NCBI GenBank assembly: GCA_018000995.1
Contig: JAGNIU010000001.1
Coordinates: forward strand, 186,001-250,000
Source of the DNA: Bacteroidia bacterium
GTDB lineage: Bacteria > Bacteroidota > Bacteroidia > B-17B0 > Aurantibacillaceae
Direction: 5' to 3'
Length of the DNA: 64,000 nt
Shown here in pieces: positions 1,950 to 25,428 of this stretch (positions within the stretch are counted from its first letter, which is position 1; the number at the start of each line of letters is the position of its first letter). The notes under the pieces were generated by a model. The model searched no databases. It worked only from the letters and a program-made list of their open reading frames with translations, and was not told the origin of the DNA. Position numbers and translations under genes: made by a program.

Positions 1950-2309
1950 TTAGCGAACCACAACGGTCTTCTCTACGCTCTTACCTTCTTCTAATTTAAT
2001 AATGCTGATGCCTGTCATAGAGGCGGTACCTATAGCTCTTACATCATAAATAGCAGGCAATTTAAATGTGAAAGAAACTCTTCCGGTTCCATCAGTAACT
2101 CCTGTTGCACGTATATCGGCAGTAATTGTTCCACTATTTGGTGTTTTTACATTAGCAAACAGATAAACTGTTGCGCCACTCATACCAACACCTGTTGAGT
2201 CGTGACAAATAATATTAGCAATACAGTCGGTATTTTTTTTACATGATGTGATGCATAAAAAACCAACTCCTAGAGTTGCTACTGCGATAAATAATCCTCT
2301 TAATTTCAT
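1950..2309 (-). CDS. Small Ig-like/carboxypeptidase-regulatory-like lipoprotein
   Basis: A 119-residue lipoprotein. The signal peptide (MKLRGLFIAVATLGVGFLC) leads to a lipobox ITSC followed by KK. The remaining 95 residues look like a single beta-sandwich of the carboxypeptidase-regulatory or big Ig-like kind: GATVYLF, a variable insert, then GVTDGTGRVSFTFKLPAIYDVRA and a final EKTVVVR strand. Such domains are found on Bacteroidota surface lipoproteins and usually act as structural or binding modules. No enzyme motif is present. It has its own terminator and stands alone between the DUF4412-like genes and a divergent cyclophilin gene, with 58 bases between the two start codons. Confidence 0.7.
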   Translation of the reverse strand: MKLRGLFIAVATLGVGFLCITSCKKNTDCIANIICHDSTGVGMSGATVYLFANVKTPNSGTITADIRATGVTDGTGRVSFTFKLPAIYDVRAIGTASMTGISIIKLEEGKSVEKTVVVR

Positions 2310-2367
2310 CTGTTCTAAAAATTTAATACGATATTCGTTAAAGCAAATGTAATAAATTAAGTTTTAA

Positions 2368-3204
2368 ATGACAAATAGTAAAGCCTTAGTTTTTAGTGTT
2401 TTAATGCTCTTTTTAGGGGCTTTTTGTGGCGCTCAAACCCATAGTAAAGAGACTATTTTGATAAGCACATCCCTAGGCAATATTAAAATTAAGTTGTTCG
2501 AGGAGACGCCTTTACATAAGAAAAACTTCCTAAAACTGGTTAAGCAAGGCTTCTATGACAGCCTCCTTTTTCATAGAGTAATTAATAGCTTTATGATACA
2601 AGGCGGCGACCCTGATAGCAAACGAGCAAATGATACAATATTGTTAGGGAATGGAGACGTTGGCTATTGGATTCCAGCCGAAATAAACCCAAAAATCTAT
2701 CACAAAAAGGGTGTTTTGGCAGCTGCGCGTGAGGGCGATGACATTAATCCTAAAAAAGAATCCTCAGGTTGTCAGTTTTATATTGTGATGGGGAAAAAAT
2801 ACGATTCGCTTGCCTTGCAAAAAGCAGAAATCAGAGTTAATCGGGAAATCATCACTAAAATAAATTATTTAGTGGGCTTTGGAGGAAAAAGTCCTGAATT
2901 GAAATCGTATTACACCCGATTGTTTGCTCAAGGAAAAGAAGACAGTTTGAAAATTGTAGTGAAACAACTTACCGATGCGGTTAGTAAAGCCGAATACGCT
3001 AAAACAAAACATTATACATGGTCGTCCACACAACGAAAAACATACGCAACGCTTGGCGGCACTCCACATCTAGATAATAACTACACTATTTTTGGAGAAG
3101 TGATTGAAGGCTTGGAAGTGATTGATAAAATTGCTGCTTCAAAAACCGACAAAAACGACAGACCAAAAGAAAATATCAGAATGAAAATTAGTATAATAAA
3201 CTAA
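2368..3204 (+). CDS. Periplasmic cyclophilin-type peptidyl-prolyl isomerase
   Basis: A 278-residue exported cyclophilin (SPI signal peptide ending FCGAQ at about residue 22). The cyclophilin core is easy to follow: ILISTSLGNIKIKLF, FLKLVKQGFYDSLLFHRVI, FMIQGGDP, GVLAAAR, SSGCQFYIVMG, and after an insertion DNNYTIFGEVIEGLEVIDKIA. The catalytic-loop FHRVI and MIQGGDP motifs are intact. Between QFYIVMG and the final FGEV block lies an extra helical segment of about 75 residues (about 150-225), which occurs in periplasmic cyclophilins of Bacteroidota and may be a substrate-binding arm. It should fold proteins in the periplasm. It is convergent with the next gene; the two stop codons overlap by four bases. 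Confidence 0.92.
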   Translation: MTNSKALVFSVLMLFLGAFCGAQTHSKETILISTSLGNIKIKLFEETPLHKKNFLKLVKQGFYDSLLFHRVINSFMIQGGDPDSKRANDTILLGNGDVGYWIPAEINPKIYHKKGVLAAAREGDDINPKKESSGCQFYIVMGKKYDSLALQKAEIRVNREIITKINYLVGFGGKSPELKSYYTRLFAQGKEDSLKIVVKQLTDAVSKAEYAKTKHYTWSSTQRKTYATLGGTPHLDNNYTIFGEVIEGLEVIDKIAASKTDKNDRPKENIRMKISIIN

Positions 3205-3710
3205 TCCTTTGTAAAGTACATATTGATGTTTAAATACGAGTGATTCCGGTCGCTAATCATAAAATCCTTTTCGTTTATCTTAAAAATTTTAAAGCGATTC
3301 GGCACATAGTTTACTGTTTCTTTTTTCAATAAATATTTTTGTACGGTTATCATACTATCGGCACAATTAATTTTAATCTTCGCAATCGCTTTACCATGAT
3401 ACGCCATTTTTCCCTGGTGCATAATATCCCAATCGTAAATCATTACAGTATCATTAGGATTGAATTTTATTTTATACTTAGCGATTTCCGATTTGTCTTC
3501 TGCAGATAAATTGCCTGCTAGTTGTAATTCAAATTTATAGTATTGCATTCTGTTATGAATTGCAGTATCGGTTGGAAAAAGTCGGGTGCGGCCATTGCGA
3601 TGAGTCGTGCCTTTGTATATAACACCTAATTCTTTAATACTTTCACAGGTAAGTTGCGCAAAAGAGCTTTGCAGAACTAAACAGAATATGAAACTAAAAA
3701 TAAATTTCAT
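3201..3710 (-). CDS. Hypothetical secreted protein
   Basis: A 169-residue protein with a signal peptide (MKFIFSFIFCLVLQSSFAQ). I do not recognise the family. The mature region alternates beta-like stretches with charged turns and has two cysteines (LTCESIK near the N-terminus and INCADSM). It starts one base after the stop codon of the methyltransferase gene (3711-4583), so the two are almost certainly cotranscribed. Its end overlaps the stop codon of the convergent cyclophilin gene by four bases. No function can be assigned. Confidence 0.6.
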   Translation of the reverse strand: MKFIFSFIFCLVLQSSFAQLTCESIKELGVIYKGTTHRNGRTRLFPTDTAIHNRMQYYKFELQLAGNLSAEDKSEIAKYKIKFNPNDTVMIYDWDIMHQGKMAYHGKAIAKIKINCADSMITVQKYLLKKETVNYVPNRFKIFKINEKDFMISDRNHSYLNINMYFTKD

Positions 3711-4583
3711 TTACTTTTCTAATTTTCCCCAAACTCCTAATGGAAGTTTAACGCCACTTTTAGCATTTAAAAATAACTCGCCAACACTTAATTCAGATTT
3801 GTGTTTTTTAGCGAAAGGACTTAATAAATTTTCAGGAACCATTGCCGAAAATCCTAATGAATAAGCATTTAAAATCAATAAATGTTTTTCATGGTCTAAC
3901 AATTGCAAAACCCCATCCATCATCTCTGCAATATTATCTTCTAATTGCCACTTTTCTCCGTTGGGACCGTGACCAAATGCAGGCGGATCTAAAATTATAC
4001 CATTGTATTTATTACCACGGCGAATTTCCTTTTTCACAAATTTCAAAGCATCATCTACTAACCAACGAATATTATCGAGGTTCGATTTTTGCATGTTTTC
4101 GTTAGCCCAGGTAACCACTTGTTTAATACTATCAACGTGAGTAACATCTGCCCCTGCTGCACGAGCAGCAATAGAAGCCCCGCCTGTGTAAGCAAATAAA
4201 TTTAAAAACTTAGGTTTGTTGAGTTTAGATAAGTAATCATAAATCACATCCCAATTCACAGCTTGCTCCGGAAAAACACCAACGTGTTTAAATCCGGTTA
4301 AACCCAAACGAAAGGTTAACTCACTTTGTTTTGATAAAGCGTAATTGATAGTCCACTGATCAGGCATTTGTTTCAACTTTTTCCAATCACCCTGCGAACT
4401 TGATTTAGGAATGAACTTCACGCTAGCTTGTTTCTCCCAATCGGCGTTCGAATAAATTTTTGGCCACACGGCTTGTGGTTCGGGACGAATAGTAATGTAT
4501 TTTCCAAAACGCTCGAGTTTTTCAAAATCACCACAATCAATTAATTCGTAATCTTTCCAGTTTTTAGGGCTTAGCAATTCCAT
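3711..4583 (-). CDS. Class I SAM-dependent methyltransferase, RlmI/RlmK-like
   Basis: A 290-residue cytosolic methyltransferase. The SAM-binding fold is visible from about residue 125: FLNLFAYTGGASIAARAAGADVTHVDS gives motif I and the acidic end of beta-2 is VTHVDS. The catalytic motif is DPPAFGHG, like the DPPxF of the RlmI/RlmK group that modifies 23S rRNA. The N-terminal 100 residues (ELIDCGDFEKLERFG, RPEPQAVWPK) resemble the region that precedes the catalytic domain in this group. The exact target base is not decidable from the sequence. It leads a two-gene minus-strand unit with the hypothetical secreted protein downstream. Confidence 0.82.
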   Translation of the reverse strand: MELLSPKNWKDYELIDCGDFEKLERFGKYITIRPEPQAVWPKIYSNADWEKQASVKFIPKSSSQGDWKKLKQMPDQWTINYALSKQSELTFRLGLTGFKHVGVFPEQAVNWDVIYDYLSKLNKPKFLNLFAYTGGASIAARAAGADVTHVDSIKQVVTWANENMQKSNLDNIRWLVDDALKFVKKEIRRGNKYNGIILDPPAFGHGPNGEKWQLEDNIAEMMDGVLQLLDHEKHLLILNAYSLGFSAMVPENLLSPFAKKHKSELSVGELFLNAKSGVKLPLGVWGKLEK

Positions 4584-7427: not shown

Positions 7428-7988
7428 ATGGAAATTTTAACACAACCTTGGCCCTGGTATATAACCGGTCCTTTAATTGGATTAATGGTGCCTTTATTAC
7501 TTTTATTTGGCAACAAAGCTTTTGGTATCTCATCATCACTCCGTCATTTTTGCGCCATGTGCATTCCTACCAAAGCAAAATTTTTTCAATACGATTGGAA
7601 AGCTGAGAAATGGAATTTAATTTTTGCAGGCGGAATGATTATTGGCGGATGTATTGCCGGTTGCCTTTTAAAAAATCCAAATCCAATTGTCTTATCTGAA
7701 TCAGCTGTTGAAAGCATGAACAAATTAGGCATTACAGATTATTCAGGTTTAATTCCTAACGAAGTTTTTAATTTCTCTTCGCTCTTAACACTGAAAGGAT
7801 TTTTATTAATTATTGTTGGCGGATTCTTTATTGGCTTTGGCACACGTTACGCAGGAGGTTGCACATCTGGTCACGCCATTATGGGAATTTCTAATTTACA
7901 ATTACCTTCTTTAATAGCCACCTGTTGTTTTTTTGCAGGAGGATTATTAATGACTTGGTTTATTCTTCCACATATAATGCATTTATAA
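7428..7988 (+). CDS. YeeE/YedE-family transporter half, N-terminal type (TsuA-like)
   Basis: A 186-residue inner-membrane protein with about five hydrophobic helices. It carries the signature of YeeE/YedE proteins: [11 protein letters not shown] near residue 40 and [14 protein letters not shown] (about 136-149), where the cysteine in GCTSGH corresponds to a residue needed for thiosulfate passage in TsuA (YeeE). In the single-chain TsuA both halves are fused; here the second half is the next gene, one base further on, as in the PmpA/PmpB-type split systems. With TsdA directly upstream this pair most likely brings thiosulfate or a related sulfur compound into the cell. Confidence 0.85.
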
Positions 7989-19184: not shown

Positions 19185-20555
19185 ATGCTTTATGATGTTA
19201 TAGTAATTGGTGGTGGACCTGCGGGCTCTTCTTCAGCAACTTATTTAAGAAAACTTGGTTTAAGTGTTTTAGTTCTGGAAAAAGAAAAATTTCCTCGCGA
19301 TCACGTTGGCGAATCACTTATACCTTTCTGCTATCACAAAATGAAGGAATTAGGTGCGCTAGATGAAATTAAAAAATTCGCCACCCTAAAACCAGGTGTT
19401 AACTTTGTTGACAATACAGGAAAACAACAATCCATCTGGTGTTTTAAAAATGTGATTGCTGATGAGAGCCATATGTCATTTCACAGTTTACGCGCTCCTT
19501 TTGATAACGCACTTTTAAGAAATTCAGAAAAACATGGCGCAACTGTATTGGAAGAGCATCATGTTAAAAATGTAATTCTCGACGCTCCCGATAATTTAGT
19601 TACCGTTGAAACAGAAGATTCACAAAAAAACAAACACACATTTACAGGGAAATTTTTAATTGATGGTAGCGGGCAAGGTAGTTTTCTGGCAAAAAAATTT
19701 AATAGTAAAAAAGTTTATAAAGGATTAGACCGCACCGCATTTTTTTGTCATTGGTTAAATAACACTTACGACCTCCCACTAAATGAAGGTTTAATAAAAA
19801 TTATTTATTTAGGTGGTGAAAAGCAAGGCTGGCTATGGGTTATTCCTGTTGGGCCCGACCATTTAAGTGTTGGTGTAAGTCTTAATAATTCATACGTAAA
19901 AGAACAAAAGAAAAAAATTTGTGAAACGAATTCAAACGACTGGCACACCGAACTTTATTTGAATGAAGTAAAAGAAGCCATAGCTTTAAATCCCATTTTA
20001 AAAAATGCGAAATTAGAACACGACGTTCTCACTATTGGTGATTACTCGTATTACAACGAAAAAAAGTTCGGAAAAAACTATGCAATGATTGGAGATTCAG
20101 GCGCGTTTTTAGATCCCATTTTTTCTAGTGGCATTTATGTGGCGTTTGAATCGGCTAACATTGTAAGTAAGGCAATTGCTAAAGGATTTAAAGCACCTGA
20201 AGCGATGGAGCAACATTTAGGTGAAGCTTATAAGCAAATTGATGGCGCGTACGCTCTGCTGGAAAAATTTATCCGTCTGTTTTATACTCCCGATGTAGTG
20301 AATTTTGCACATATGGGCTCATCCTCAAAAATTGAGTACGAAAGTTTTAAAAATGCTTACAATATTTTTCATTACCTCTTATCCGGCGATTTTTTTAACA
20401 ATTACGAGCATTATTCGGCTTTTTTAGATCAAATCAGCTCCGAAAAAACATTTCACAAGTACATTAATCTTACCCGAAGCCAGCATAACGAATTAATATC
20501 GCCTGAGTCGTGCGGTCATAGCTTTGAAAGTATTTACGGGCACCTCATAAAATAG
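19185..20555 (+). CDS. FAD-dependent oxidoreductase, tryptophan halogenase-like family
   Basis: A 456-residue flavoprotein. The N-terminal Rossmann motif is VIGGGPAGSSSATYLRKLGLSVLVLEK, followed by FPRDHVGESLIP, which is characteristic of the halogenase/geranylgeranyl reductase-like group; a second FAD motif is GKNYAMIGDSGAFLDPIFSSG. The lysine and the WxWxIP motif of true flavin halogenases are replaced by WLWVIPVGPDHLSVG, so halogenation itself is not shown. Members of the group act on isoprenoids, aromatic acids or halogenated substrates. It lies nine bases after ispG, which favours an isoprenoid-related role, but it also precedes the paa operon. Substrate undetermined. Confidence 0.75.
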   Translation: MLYDVIVIGGGPAGSSSATYLRKLGLSVLVLEKEKFPRDHVGESLIPFCYHKMKELGALDEIKKFATLKPGVNFVDNTGKQQSIWCFKNVIADESHMSFHSLRAPFDNALLRNSEKHGATVLEEHHVKNVILDAPDNLVTVETEDSQKNKHTFTGKFLIDGSGQGSFLAKKFNSKKVYKGLDRTAFFCHWLNNTYDLPLNEGLIKIIYLGGEKQGWLWVIPVGPDHLSVGVSLNNSYVKEQKKKICETNSNDWHTELYLNEVKEAIALNPILKNAKLEHDVLTIGDYSYYNEKKFGKNYAMIGDSGAFLDPIFSSGIYVAFESANIVSKAIAKGFKAPEAMEQHLGEAYKQIDGAYALLEKFIRLFYTPDVVNFAHMGSSSKIEYESFKNAYNIFHYLLSGDFFNNYEHYSAFLDQISSEKTFHKYINLTRSQHNELISPESCGHSFESIYGHLIK

Positions 20556-20638: not shown

Positions 20639-21580
20639 ATGGAAAATAAAAATTTTGAAGATGTTTTTGAAGCCAAATTGGCCAAAAACGAAATGGTGGA
20701 ACCTAAAGATTGGATGCCGGAAAATTACCGCAAACATCTTATCCGCCAAATATCACAACATGCCCATTCAGAAATTGTAGGGATGTTACCGGAAGGTAAT
20801 TGGATTACCCGCGCCCCAAGCTTACGTGCTAAAAAAGTTCTTTTAGCAAAAGTGCAAGACGAAGGCGGACACGGATTATATCTATATACAGCCGCAGAAA
20901 CTTTAGGGATTAGCCGCGATGAATTATTAAATGCATTACATACCGGTAAAGCAAAATACTCTTCTATTTTTAATTACCCTACTCTTACTTGGGCTGATAT
21001 TGGAGCAATTGGTTGGTTAGTAGATGGTGCTGCTATCATGAATCAAGTAATGTTACAGCGTACATCTTACGGTCCGTATGCAAGGGCAATGGTGCGTATT
21101 TGTAAAGAAGAAAGTTTTCATCAACGTCAAGGTTACGAAATCATGACTCACTTATCATTCGGAACTAAAGAACAAAAAGAAATGGCGCAGGATGCATTGA
21201 ACCGTTGGTGGTTTCCTACGCTTATGATGTTTGGACCACCGGATTCTGAATCCCCGAATAGCGAAAACGCCATTAAGTGGAGAATTAAACGTGAGACTAA
21301 CGATCAATTACGTCAGCGTTTTGTTAATCAAACTATAAAGCAAATTGAATATTTAGGATTAACACTTCCGGATAAAAATTTAAAATGGAACGAAGCTAAA
21401 CAAGGTTACGATTACAGCGAGCCGAATTGGGTGGAGTTTAAAAATGTTATTAGCGGAAACGGACCTTGTAACAAAGAACGTTTAGCAGCAAGAAACGCTT
21501 CTCACAAAAATGGTGAGTGGGTTCGCGCAGCAGCAATGGCATACGCAAAAAAACATGCTGAACCTTTTATGGCAGCTTAA
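20639..21580 (+). CDS. paaA: 1,2-phenylacetyl-CoA epoxidase subunit A
   Basis: The catalytic subunit of the multicomponent phenylacetyl-CoA epoxidase, 313 residues from the ATG at 20639; an upstream in-frame TTG (20615) falls only six bases after the -7 box and is unlikely to be used. The di-iron carboxylate ligand sites are readable: [28 protein letters not shown] and [17 protein letters not shown], the last with the typical ExxH. The enzyme adds oxygen to the ring of phenylacetyl-CoA. Downstream are B and C, then D after two inserted genes. The gap to paaB (86 bases) contains an AT-rich inverted repeat. Confidence 0.96.
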
Positions 21581-21666: not shown

Positions 21667-21954
21667 ATGAGCGATTCACAAGGACCAATTTGGGAAGTGT
21701 TTGTACAAAAAAAAGCAGGACAACCCTACGTACACTGCGGAAGTCTGCATGCATTTGACAGAGAGATGGCGTTACAAAACGCACGCGATTTATATACTCG
21801 CCGTAACGAAGGCATGGCGCTTTGGGTAGTACCATCAGCAGCAATTACTGCAAGTAGCCCTGAAGATATCGGTTCCTTTTTTGAACCGGCTGATGACAAA
21901 GTTTATCGTCACCCAACATTTTATCAAATTCCCGATGCAATCGGACACATGTAA
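21667..21954 (+). CDS. paaB: 1,2-phenylacetyl-CoA epoxidase subunit B
   Basis: A 95-residue subunit of the epoxidase complex; PaaB has no catalytic site and bridges the PaaA-PaaC units. Recognisable family blocks are WEVFVQKKAGQPYVHCGSLHAFDREMALQNARDLYTRRNEGMALWVV and YRHPTFYQIPDAIGHM at the end. Length is normal for PaaB. paaC starts three bases after the stop codon. Confidence 0.95.
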   Translation: MSDSQGPIWEVFVQKKAGQPYVHCGSLHAFDREMALQNARDLYTRRNEGMALWVVPSAAITASSPEDIGSFFEPADDKVYRHPTFYQIPDAIGHM

Positions 21955-21957
21955 TTT

Positions 21958-22707
21958 ATGAATCCATTATTTACATACACCTTACGTTTAGCAGATAATG
22001 CTTTAGTACTTGGTCAAAGATTAAGTGAGTGGACTGGTCATGGTCCTTTTTTAGAAGAAGATTTAGCATTAACTAATATTGCCTTAGATACATTTGGAAC
22101 CGCTACTTCTTTATTGGAATACGCAGCGCTAGTTGAAAATAAAAATAGAGATGCTGATGCATTAGCTTACAGAAGAAGCGAACGTGATTTCTGTAATGTT
22201 TTATTAGTTGAACAAAATAATGGCGATTACGCAAAGACAATTTTACGTCAGAGCTGTATTGATGCTTACAACATTTTATTATATACCGAATTAGCAAAAA
22301 GTAAAGACGAAACTTTAGCAGGTATTTCTCAAAAAGCAATTAAAGAAGTAACTTACCATTTTCGTCACACCTCTTCATGGGTGATTCGTTTTGGTGATGG
22401 TACTGAAGAGAGTCATAACAAAATTCAAGAGGCCTTAAATGAGTTATGGCGTTTTACAGGAGAGTTATTTGAGCAAGATGAAGTTGAAGAGACTTTAATT
22501 AAGCAAGGCATTGCTGTTGATGTAAATGCATTTCAAGCGAAATGGGAAAAACAAATGGAAGAGTTGTTTACTAAAGCTACTCTTAAAAAACCGGAAACTG
22601 TATTTATGCAAACTGGCGGAAGAAAAGGATTACACACCGAACATTTAGGTTATATGCTTTCAGAAATGCAAACTTTACCAAGGATGTTGCCGGATGCTAA
22701 GTGGTAA
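21958..22707 (+). CDS. paaC: 1,2-phenylacetyl-CoA epoxidase subunit C
   Basis: A 249-residue structural subunit, a ferritin-like helical protein related to PaaA but without a complete di-iron site. Landmarks are RLADNALVLGQRLSEWTGHGPFLEEDLAL, NIALDTFGTATSLLEYA, RSERDFCNVLLVEQNNGDYA, EVTYHFRHTSSWVIRFGDGTEESH and GGRKGLHTEHLGYMLSEMQ. It pairs with PaaA in the core of the complex. In this genome the operon does not continue directly to paaD: a small membrane-peptide gene and a SpoIIE-type phosphatase follow after 70 bases. Confidence 0.95.
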   Translation: MNPLFTYTLRLADNALVLGQRLSEWTGHGPFLEEDLALTNIALDTFGTATSLLEYAALVENKNRDADALAYRRSERDFCNVLLVEQNNGDYAKTILRQSCIDAYNILLYTELAKSKDETLAGISQKAIKEVTYHFRHTSSWVIRFGDGTEESHNKIQEALNELWRFTGELFEQDEVEETLIKQGIAVDVNAFQAKWEKQMEELFTKATLKKPETVFMQTGGRKGLHTEHLGYMLSEMQTLPRMLPDAKW

Positions 22708-22777: not shown

Positions 22778-22885
22778 ATGAGCTTAAAAGAAAATTGGAA
22801 AAAATTATCTCCCTACTTCGTTGACATTTGGCAATACTTAGTCATCATTGTAATTATGATTATTGCCGCTATTTTTATTCTATAA
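22778..22885 (+). CDS. 35-residue single-helix membrane peptide
   Basis: A short reading frame of 35 codons with an ATG at 22778, preceded at a proper distance by a purine-rich GAGGGG, an unusually good Shine-Dalgarno-like site for this phylum. The peptide is MSLKENWKKL followed by SPYFVDIWQY and then a hydrophobic tail of about 16 residues (LVIIVIMIIAAIFIL), so one helix with a basic N-terminus inside the cell. Its TAA stop is followed without any gap by the ATG of the SpoIIE-type phosphatase, which points to coupled translation. I do not recognise a family. It may be a membrane anchor or regulator for its neighbour. Confidence 0.6.
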   Translation: MSLKENWKKLSPYFVDIWQYLVIIVIMIIAAIFIL

Positions 22886-24943
22886 ATGCATTTAAGATTA
22901 CGCATATTTGTTTTTCTGATTTGCACTTCGCTTAGTGGTTTGTTGTATTCACAAAAAACAAATGACACAGTAGCCATCAACACAATTATAAAATTAACCG
23001 ATCAGCTTCTTGAAAGAAAAGTGGATTCAGCGTTCTTCACTATACAATCCACACTTCAGTCGTCTTATAAAAGTAAATACGTTTACGGTTACGCAAAGTC
23101 GAACATGCAGTTGATGCGTTACTATATGCTAAAGGGACAAGACGACTCTGCTACTTACACTTCAAATAAAGCCATCAAATATGCGCGCATTAGCAAAGAT
23201 ACTTCGCTTATCATTAGTGCTTATCTAATGACCTCTCGTGCTTATAGTTCTTCTTCACAATATACCAAGGCAATTGAATATTGTTTGATTGCGCAAAAAT
23301 ATGCTGATCATAAAAAAAACGCAAAATTTCAAATAAAAATCAATCACGATCTCGGTTACATTTATAGTAACATGCATTTAAACGCAAAAGCAATTACGTA
23401 TTATAAAAACGGACTCAAGCTAAGCGAAGAAGCAAAAGATACTTTTAATTTTGCCAATATTTCAGCCAGATTAGGAGGTGAATTTGATATTACGTTTCAA
23501 TACGATTCTGCACTTAAATACAATCAGCAATCTTTAAAATATTTTACGCTTATAAAACACAAGCGTGGCATTGGTGTAAGTTTAGTTAATTTGGCCTCTA
23601 ATTATAAAGGTTTGGAATTATATGATAAAGCTATTCAAACCAATCTTGAAGCAATTAAAATCAGAACAGAATTAGGAGATAATTACGCTTTAACTATTTT
23701 AAAAAGCAATTTAGCCGCATGTTATACGAAAAAATGTGATTATAAAAATGCCTTGATCGCAGCTAAAGAAGCTGAAGTGTTGTGTAGAGAACAAAATGAC
23801 TTATCGTTGTCACTTGAAGTATATAATCAGTTGTATGTAATTTATTATAATACGAATGACTACGAAAATGGGATCAAATACGCTAATAAATATATCACCC
23901 TCAAAGATTCTATTTTCGAGGCTTCTAACGTTCAATCCTTAACCGAATTGCAAACTAAATATGAAACAGATAAAAAAGAAAGAGAAATAGAATTGTTACA
24001 ATTAGAAAAGAAAAGTGCCGACGAAAAAGCCTCAGCAGAAAGCACGCGCCGTAATCTTATTTTGTTTTCGGTTAGCATCATTACCCTTTTAATTACTGGT
24101 TTCTCTATTATGCTTTTCAGAAGGTTCAGAGAATCGAACAAACAGAAAAACATTATTCAACTTCAAAAACACATCGTAGATTCAAAAAACAAAGAAATTA
24201 TTGATAGTATTAATTACGCACAAACTATTCAGGAAGCTTTAATCCCTGAAGAAAATGAAATTAAACAGCATGTTAAGGATGCCTTTGTAATATTTAAACC
24301 AAAGGATATTGTAAGTGGTGATTTCTATTGGCAAGCTGCAACAAAAAATTATTATTTCATTGCTGTAGCAGATTGTACCGGTCATGGTGTGCCGGGCGCT
24401 TTTATGAGTATGATGGGGATTTCGTTTTTAAATGAAATTATTAATGAGAAAAACGTTTATGATACGGACAAAATTTTAGATTTGTTAAGAGAAAGAGTTA
24501 TCAATAGCTTAAATAAAAGCGGCGGAAAAGACAAACGCGACGGGATGGATATGGTAATTCTAAGAATAGATTTAAAAGAAAATAAAGTAATGTTTAGTGG
24601 CGCCAATAATTCTGTTTATCACCAATCAGGCGGAACTTTAAACGAAATGAAAGGTGATAAAGCACCTGTAGGTTTATATCATAACGAATTAATTCCATAC
24701 ACATCTGCCACTTTCACAATTAAAAAAAGAGACCGCCTTTTTGCAACAACAGATGGTTTACCTGATCAGTTTGGTGGACCAAAAGGAAAAAAATTAATGT
24801 ATAAAGCATTTGAGGCTTTATTAATCGCCAACCAAACCAATTCACTTTCCGGACTTAAACAAGCTATGATCAGTGATTTTGATAGTTGGCAAGGCGTTAA
24901 CGAACAAGTGGATGACATAACAGTTATAGGAATAGAAATTTAA
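22886..24943 (+). CDS. TPR-containing membrane PP2C (SpoIIE-type) phosphatase
   Basis: A 685-residue sensor. After a signal-like N-terminal segment (residues 5-20) comes a periplasmic-side TPR array (about 40-345; for example KAIEYCLIAQKYADH, AITYYKNGLKLSEEAKD, KAIQTNLEAIKIRTELGD), a coiled coil (about 350-390), a membrane helix (about 392-412) and a second coiled coil. The cytosolic C-terminus (about 440-685) is a PP2C/SpoIIE domain with metal-binding aspartates in IVSGDFYW, ADCTGHGVPGAFMS, RDGMDMVIL and FATTDGLPDQFGGP. Such proteins dephosphorylate serine on anti-sigma-factor antagonists. It starts flush with the 35-residue peptide and ends with a one-base overlap with paaD (TAATG), so it is built into the paa operon. 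Its partner is not visible here. Confidence 0.88.
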   Translation: MHLRLRIFVFLICTSLSGLLYSQKTNDTVAINTIIKLTDQLLERKVDSAFFTIQSTLQSSYKSKYVYGYAKSNMQLMRYYMLKGQDDSATYTSNKAIKYARISKDTSLIISAYLMTSRAYSSSSQYTKAIEYCLIAQKYADHKKNAKFQIKINHDLGYIYSNMHLNAKAITYYKNGLKLSEEAKDTFNFANISARLGGEFDITFQYDSALKYNQQSLKYFTLIKHKRGIGVSLVNLASNYKGLELYDKAIQTNLEAIKIRTELGDNYALTILKSNLAACYTKKCDYKNALIAAKEAEVLCREQNDLSLSLEVYNQLYVIYYNTNDYENGIKYANKYITLKDSIFEASNVQSLTELQTKYETDKKEREIELLQLEKKSADEKASAESTRRNLILFSVSIITLLITGFSIMLFRRFRESNKQKNIIQLQKHIVDSKNKEIIDSINYAQTIQEALIPEENEIKQHVKDAFVIFKPKDIVSGDFYWQAATKNYYFIAVADCTGHGVPGAFMSMMGISFLNEIINEKNVYDTDKILDLLRERVINSLNKSGGKDKRDGMDMVILRIDLKENKVMFSGANNSVYHQSGGTLNEMKGDKAPVGLYHNELIPYTSATFTIKKRDRLFATTDGLPDQFGGPKGKKLMYKAFEALLIANQTNSLSGLKQAMISDFDSWQGVNEQVDDITVIGIEI

Positions 24944-25428
24944 TGCTTAGCAAAGAAAAAATAAAAGAACTCATCTCAGTTATTCCCGATCCGGAAATTC
25001 CTGTAATAACTATTGCAGAACTTGGCGTTATCCGTGATGTTATTGTTGAAGGTGAAAATGTAGAAATAAAAATTACACCAACGTATAGTGGTTGTCCCGC
25101 CATGAAACAAATGGAAGACGACATCCGCTCTACTCTTCTTCAAAACGGAATTAAAAATCTTAAAGTCACGTTGGTTTATTCTCCGGCGTGGACTACAGAT
25201 TGGATTCCTGAAGAAGCTCGTGAAAAATTACGTGTTTATGGTATTGCACCTCCTGAAAAAACAACTGAAGATAAATCTTGGTTAACCGGAAAAAGTAAAA
25301 TTGTTTTATGTCCGCGCTGTAAATCTCAAAACACAAAACTAATTTCTCAATTCGGAAGCACGGCATGTAAAGCTCTTTATCAGTGTCAAGATTGCTTAGA
25401 GCCTTTTGATTATTTTAAGTGTATTTAA
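24943..25428 (+). CDS. paaD: 1,2-phenylacetyl-CoA epoxidase subunit D
   Basis: A 161-residue protein of the DUF59/MIP18 group, thought to help in iron-sulfur cluster delivery for the epoxidase complex. The DUF59 part shows IPDPEIPVITIAELGVIRDV and TPTYSGCPAMKQMEDDI; the C-terminal extension specific to PaaD carries four cysteines in CPRCKSQ and YQCQDCLEPF, a metal-binding knuckle. It overlaps the phosphatase gene by one base. paaE, the reductase that normally completes the set, is not in this window: the operon stops at a terminator right after this gene. Confidence 0.94.
   Translation: MLSKEKIKELISVIPDPEIPVITIAELGVIRDVIVEGENVEIKITPTYSGCPAMKQMEDDIRSTLLQNGIKNLKVTLVYSPAWTTDWIPEEAREKLRVYGIAPPEKTTEDKSWLTGKSKIVLCPRCKSQNTKLISQFGSTACKALYQCQDCLEPFDYFKCI

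Follow-up and report, generated by a model that had tools for sequence, protein, structure and literature searches.

Why should the genes of a phenylacetyl-CoA epoxidase be parted, between paaC and paaD, by a 35-residue membrane peptide and a TPR/SpoIIE phosphatase, and does either of the two serve the epoxidase? We addressed this question in a 64-kb stretch of Bacteroidia DNA (hereafter the window, meaning the whole stretch analysed) and by comparison with related genomes. The original prediction had placed the two genes between paaC and paaD, where we confirmed their coordinates, and had proposed that the phosphatase, made in step with the complex, could report on the state of the epoxidase or on membrane stress. 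The features concerned are as follows:

20639..21580, + strand: paaA, 1,2-phenylacetyl-CoA epoxidase subunit A, 313 aa (TIGR02156, 510 bits, cut-off 280)
21667..21954, + strand: paaB, 95 aa (TIGR02157, 126 bits, cut-off 85)
21958..22707, + strand: paaC, 249 aa (TIGR02158, 297 bits, cut-off 133)
22778..22885, + strand: 35-aa single-pass membrane protein MSLKENWKKLSPYFVDIWQYLVIIVIMIIAAIFIL, conserved, of a family without a name (homologues, dN/dS, predicted helix)
22886..24943, + strand: SpoIIE (PPM) phosphatase, 685 aa, laid out as signal peptide, TPR array, TM helix, coiled coil and SpoIIE domain (PF07228, TPR_12)
24943..25428, + strand: paaD, Fe-S maturation-type subunit, 161 aa (TIGR02159, 198 bits, cut-off 108)

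PaaA, PaaB, PaaC and PaaD all passed their equivalog cut-offs, identifying this as an epoxidase operon, with the + strand order paaA-paaB-paaC-peptide-phosphatase-paaD. The predicted tight junctions, TAA-ATG and TAATG, were both found: the peptide's TAA ends at 22885 and the phosphatase ATG begins at 22886, and the phosphatase TAA ends at 24943, on the first base of the paaD ATG. Between paaC and the peptide gene lie 70 nt, so tightness is a property of the last two junctions only. The + strand shows no terminator-like site in any of the gaps from paaC through peptide and phosphatase to paaD, and the genes of the operon are presumably co-transcribed. Bacteroidetes-type promoters gave no + strand match from 20.5 to 25.5 kb and no enrichment across the window. 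A structured RNA in the paaC-peptide gap was considered and rejected, as there was no Rfam match and shuffled sequences folded equally well. Upstream, between ispG and paaA (19185-20555), lies a gene for an FAD-dependent halogenase-like protein, with a relative in the same place (46%) in G007 only, among the relatives compared.

Of the two genes, that of the peptide is the more interesting. A profile search recovered the peptide in 72 of 87 genomes from the host's family in GTDB, as a single copy in almost every case (one of the 72 being a weak match), and in 60-65 of 396 genomes sampled over the class, i.e., in 25-28 of 198 genera and ~15% of the sampled Bacteroidia. The homologues measure 29 to 39 residues, their N-termini are mostly basic, and the motif YF-V/P-D-x-WQY is followed by a hydrophobic helix that runs to the stop codon, usually as AAIFIL; both PYFVD-WQY and the exact C-terminus are kept. 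Within the host's family alone, ~70 homologues share the motif. The peptide's dN/dS (0.02-0.14) falls within the range of PaaC and PaaD, and residues 3-34 are predicted to form one helix (pLDDT 86). The gene is genuine, and purifying selection on it is strong. Searches for known relatives gave a best Pfam E of 0.027 (viral SHP, below the cut-off), a best PDB E of 1.5, which indicates no relative, and no match in NCBIfam or PHROG; the family is a small membrane protein of Bacteroidia that is missing from all four. A search of plasmids for the peptide gave no copy. That the peptide might be a chance ORF or a leader peptide was excluded by its homologues, its dN/dS and the copies beside unrelated genes. 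A degenerate second copy, covering the peptide's first 20 residues, was seen in a 43-aa ORF at 7705-7797 of locus L034 (paa-strand reading), where it adjoins the intact peptide on its upstream side; it also occurs on contig C57 of G005.

In the host family, paaC-peptide-paaD is the peptide's usual address: 46 of the 57 loci examined lie at paaC and/or paaD, with paaC upstream in 43 (at 100 nt or less in 29) and paaD downstream in 37. The same order recurs in G211, a member of another family (L257), and again at L236, in a MAG that carries the label Chryseobacterium gleum. The PaaC proteins of these two are only ~46-62% identical to other Bacteroidia PaaC, the host family being no nearer than the rest, so that a recent transfer from the host family is not supported as the origin of the shared order, which argues for a genuine tie to Paa. 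Ten loci of relatives (L031, L034, L036, L037, L039, L043, L101, L105, L138 and L139) hold one or two copies of a gene for a secreted ~115-aa protein between paaC and the peptide, one of these inserts weakly resembling the GldM C-terminal domain (E 0.006, below the cut-off).

Elsewhere in the class, the peptide is found beside unrelated genes, and its job is therefore probably wider than Paa. In Crocinitomicaceae-type genomes, among them those of the cultured Lishizhenia tianjinensis and Brumimicrobium glaciale, the gene after it encodes a ~780-aa secreted protein and is followed by a glycosyltransferase gene; in genus g9 it is flanked by genes for a universal-stress protein (UspA) and a TPR protein; still other copies have SuhB-like and SulP-type genes as neighbours or lie near the gene for a cytochrome c oxidase subunit. 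A second form, KKYGNYFVD (L070, L121, L122, L123 and L126), has spermidine-synthase-like, methyltransferase, SulP- or NuoL-like transport and DUF983-like genes for neighbours, the spermidine-synthase-like and transport genes being named by eye. At L334 (G233, 2173-4117), a SuhB-like gene stands between paaA and the downstream peptide, and neither paaB nor paaC is beside them.

These addresses bear directly on the main rival to a general role, namely a Paa-specific membrane tether or assembly factor, by which the peptide would bring soluble PaaABC, or maturation by PaaD/PaaE, to the membrane, its copies elsewhere being paralogues with other jobs or orphans left by operon breakup. The paaC-paaD address, seen across most of the family and again in two distant lineages, favours such a tether, as does a conservation as tight as that of PaaC and PaaD. 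So does the presence of paaA in 59 of 60 peptide carriers versus 294 of 396 genomes overall (class sample, counted by hand), a count confounded by descent, as both genes track aerobic lineages. On the other hand, Lishizhenia and Brumimicrobium carry the peptide beside other genes altogether, G179 has it without paaA, and G028, G035 and G064 have paaA without a detected peptide. It is on the strength of these exceptions and of the copies away from paa that we prefer a general membrane role and regard a Paa-specific one as possible, though somewhat unlikely. By the same token, the peptide's presence away from paa in so many genomes leaves the label 'peptide of the epoxidase' unproven.

As a general membrane protein, the peptide would be bitopic, with a basic, cytoplasmic N-terminus and a hydrophobic C-terminus (-AAIFIL-stop) ending within the membrane. 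It may serve a membrane complex, one not dedicated to phenylacetate degradation, either as a small accessory subunit or as a regulator. The paa operon would then be its usual site of expression in the host family rather than a mark of its specific function, a distinction suggested by the same peptide family standing beside unrelated genes in other Bacteroidia.

The phosphatase presents a different picture. It matched PF07228 with 76.8 bits (cut-off 25) and TPR_12 with 44.2 (cut-off 30.1), and an N-terminal signal peptide was called by eye. In its AlphaFold2 model (low overall confidence, mean pLDDT 65, taken for domain layout only), a helical repeat array spans residues 46-340, long helices at 326-452 take in the hydrophobic stretch near 390-412, and residues 465-684 form an alpha/beta domain. 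The PPM aspartates D479, D496, D552, D555, D623, D676 and D677 are invariant in an alignment of four orthologues, and stand in the motifs SGD479, AD496CTGHG (the G-H-G motif), D552/D555, TTD623G and D676D677.

The host genome (G000, 3.6 Mb) gave 42 SpoIIE matches, which reduce to 41 loci since two are halves of a single gene, and the paa-located phosphatase belongs to an orthogroup of 15 (support 100/99), within which values run from 44 to 83%, versus 35% for the best paralogue. Nine of the 15, from two genera, are located at paaD and six lie away from paa among unrelated neighbours, a distribution that requires three location changes on the orthogroup tree. At the paa locus, the orthologue follows the peptide in G000, G003, G005 and G007 of the host's genus and in G068, G069 and G083 of another; the G005 contig ends within the phosphatase gene, and the other six run into paaD. 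In G032 and G074 (L056 and L327), the TPR receptor orthologue directly precedes paaD and ends at the coiled coil, and hence has no phosphatase domain. Within the host's genus, G006, with Paa proteins 87-97% identical, shows paaC-peptide-paaD and no phosphatase orthologue anywhere, and G001 likewise retains an intact paaABC-peptide-paaD with the orthologue absent from the operon and elsewhere. The phosphatase is an optional addition to the paa operon.

The view that both genes are built into the operon thus survives in part: the peptide is a standing paa member in most of the family, and peptide-phosphatase-paaD is the arrangement in two genera, but the phosphatase itself can be left out. The original prediction had also considered that close relatives with paaC and paaD adjacent and the phosphatase elsewhere would reveal a one-off insertion. 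Close relatives do lack it, as G006 and G001 illustrate, yet its orthologues occupy the slot in two genera, so only half of that scenario holds, and a one-off insertion is ruled out.

Could the phosphatase nevertheless have arrived by chance, as a member of a large, expanding family whose position means nothing? The presence of about 41 paralogues in 3.6 Mb, and the recurrence of absence, relocation and truncation alike, are in line with such pure hitch-hiking. We consider it unlikely, given that one and the same orthogroup occupies the position ahead of paaD in three tree branches and that the protein is under amino-acid constraint (dN 0.10 at saturated dS, G000 versus G003). A further reading, which strikes us as improbable, makes the peptide an undescribed membrane micropeptide of Bacteroidia and an obligate epoxidase partner that keeps the complex, or its Fe-S maturation, at the membrane; in some lineages the TPR phosphatase would then equip this membrane-bound module with a sensor.

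Least probable of all is that the phosphatase monitors the epoxidase's state, a toxic epoxide or stress at the membrane and passes the signal on through an anti-sigma cascade: the TAATG overlap with paaD, the equal position in two genera and the conserved active-site residues speak for it, but the operon is intact without an orthologue in G006 and G001, six orthologues sit off paa among unrelated neighbours, G032 and G074 keep the place at paaD without a catalytic domain, and the TPR region past the signal peptide would lie on the periplasmic side of the membrane, away from the cytoplasmic epoxidase. The idea of a built-in epoxidase reporter is, on these same grounds, not supported. The sensing of an epoxide or of membrane stress by the phosphatase is possible as such; none of our results points there.

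What, then, might the phosphatase act upon? Both STAS models identified the same, sole STAS protein of the genome, an RsbV-like protein of 125 aa with a YMNSSG site (L333), and there is one clear RsbW-like kinase of 136 aa with a strong family match (L332), these being counts from Pfam models, by which diverged partners could be missed. Neither gene is linked to that of the phosphatase, the STAS gene being on contig C46 and the kinase gene ~160 kb away, on C19. With a single STAS protein and only one clear kinase of the RsbW-like type available, a shared hub is the most likely target of the phosphatase. The STAS protein is a candidate substrate by analogy with the family (PMC11418112). Provided that Pfam misses no partner, the wiring would be many-to-one, with ~41 phosphatases converging on one switch. 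Streptomyces coelicolor, for its part, has 46 SpoIIE-like phosphatases (PMC2887360).

Taken together, the two genes are best accounted for, with moderate confidence, by a two-part reading: the peptide has a general membrane-complex role, and the phosphatase is an optional element feeding a shared RsbV/RsbW-type switch. According to this two-part reading, the periplasmic TPR domain would receive a signal, upon which the cytoplasmic phosphatase domain would dephosphorylate the single RsbV-like STAS protein and thereby shift the shared switch. Its position in the operon would tie the dose of the phosphatase to phenylacetate catabolism, for which it would nonetheless be dispensable.

Our literature search found no paper on these genes together, and the main text of a 2026 survey of the pathway mentions neither Bacteroidota nor Bacteroidetes (PMC13186573). 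A gene of 35 codons, conserved to its last residue over many Bacteroidia yet missing from the curated family libraries that we searched, is of the type that annotation overlooks, and its defined position in a catabolic operon offers a first handle for testing its function. As for the phosphatases, the convergence of ~41 of them on a lone STAS protein and a single clear RsbW-like kinase, if real, would amount to an extreme many-to-one sensor network.

Compared with known systems, the locus shares the order paaA, paaB, paaC, paaD with the paaABCDE phenylacetyl-CoA epoxidase operon, and departs from it in the two genes between paaC and paaD and in the absence of paaE and paaG from the 64-kb window, where a relative's PaaE-like protein, used as a tblastn query, found no match. 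In many relatives, a paaE-like gene lies upstream in divergent orientation. The peptide calls to mind small bitopic proteins of the CydX/CcoM type, which likewise have 30-40 residues and one TM helix, with aromatic and polar residues conserved at one edge of the membrane; it differs from them in matching none of the family libraries searched and in a window that offers no link to an oxidase operon. By sequence, the nearest solved phosphatase domain is 6k4e, which we take to be SiaA of Pseudomonas aeruginosa. SiaA resembles the phosphatase as a membrane sensor phosphatase with a STAS-like partner, but our protein has no adjacent SiaBCD-like gene and scored 156 bits with NF038263, below the SiaA cut-off of 700. 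With SpoIIE/RsbU-type PPM phosphatases at large it has in common the catalytic domain, the metal-binding aspartates and an N-terminal sensor; unlike them, it has its rsbV/rsbW-like partners elsewhere in the genome, and its sensor is a TPR array behind a signal peptide, joined to the catalytic domain through a TM helix and a coiled coil.
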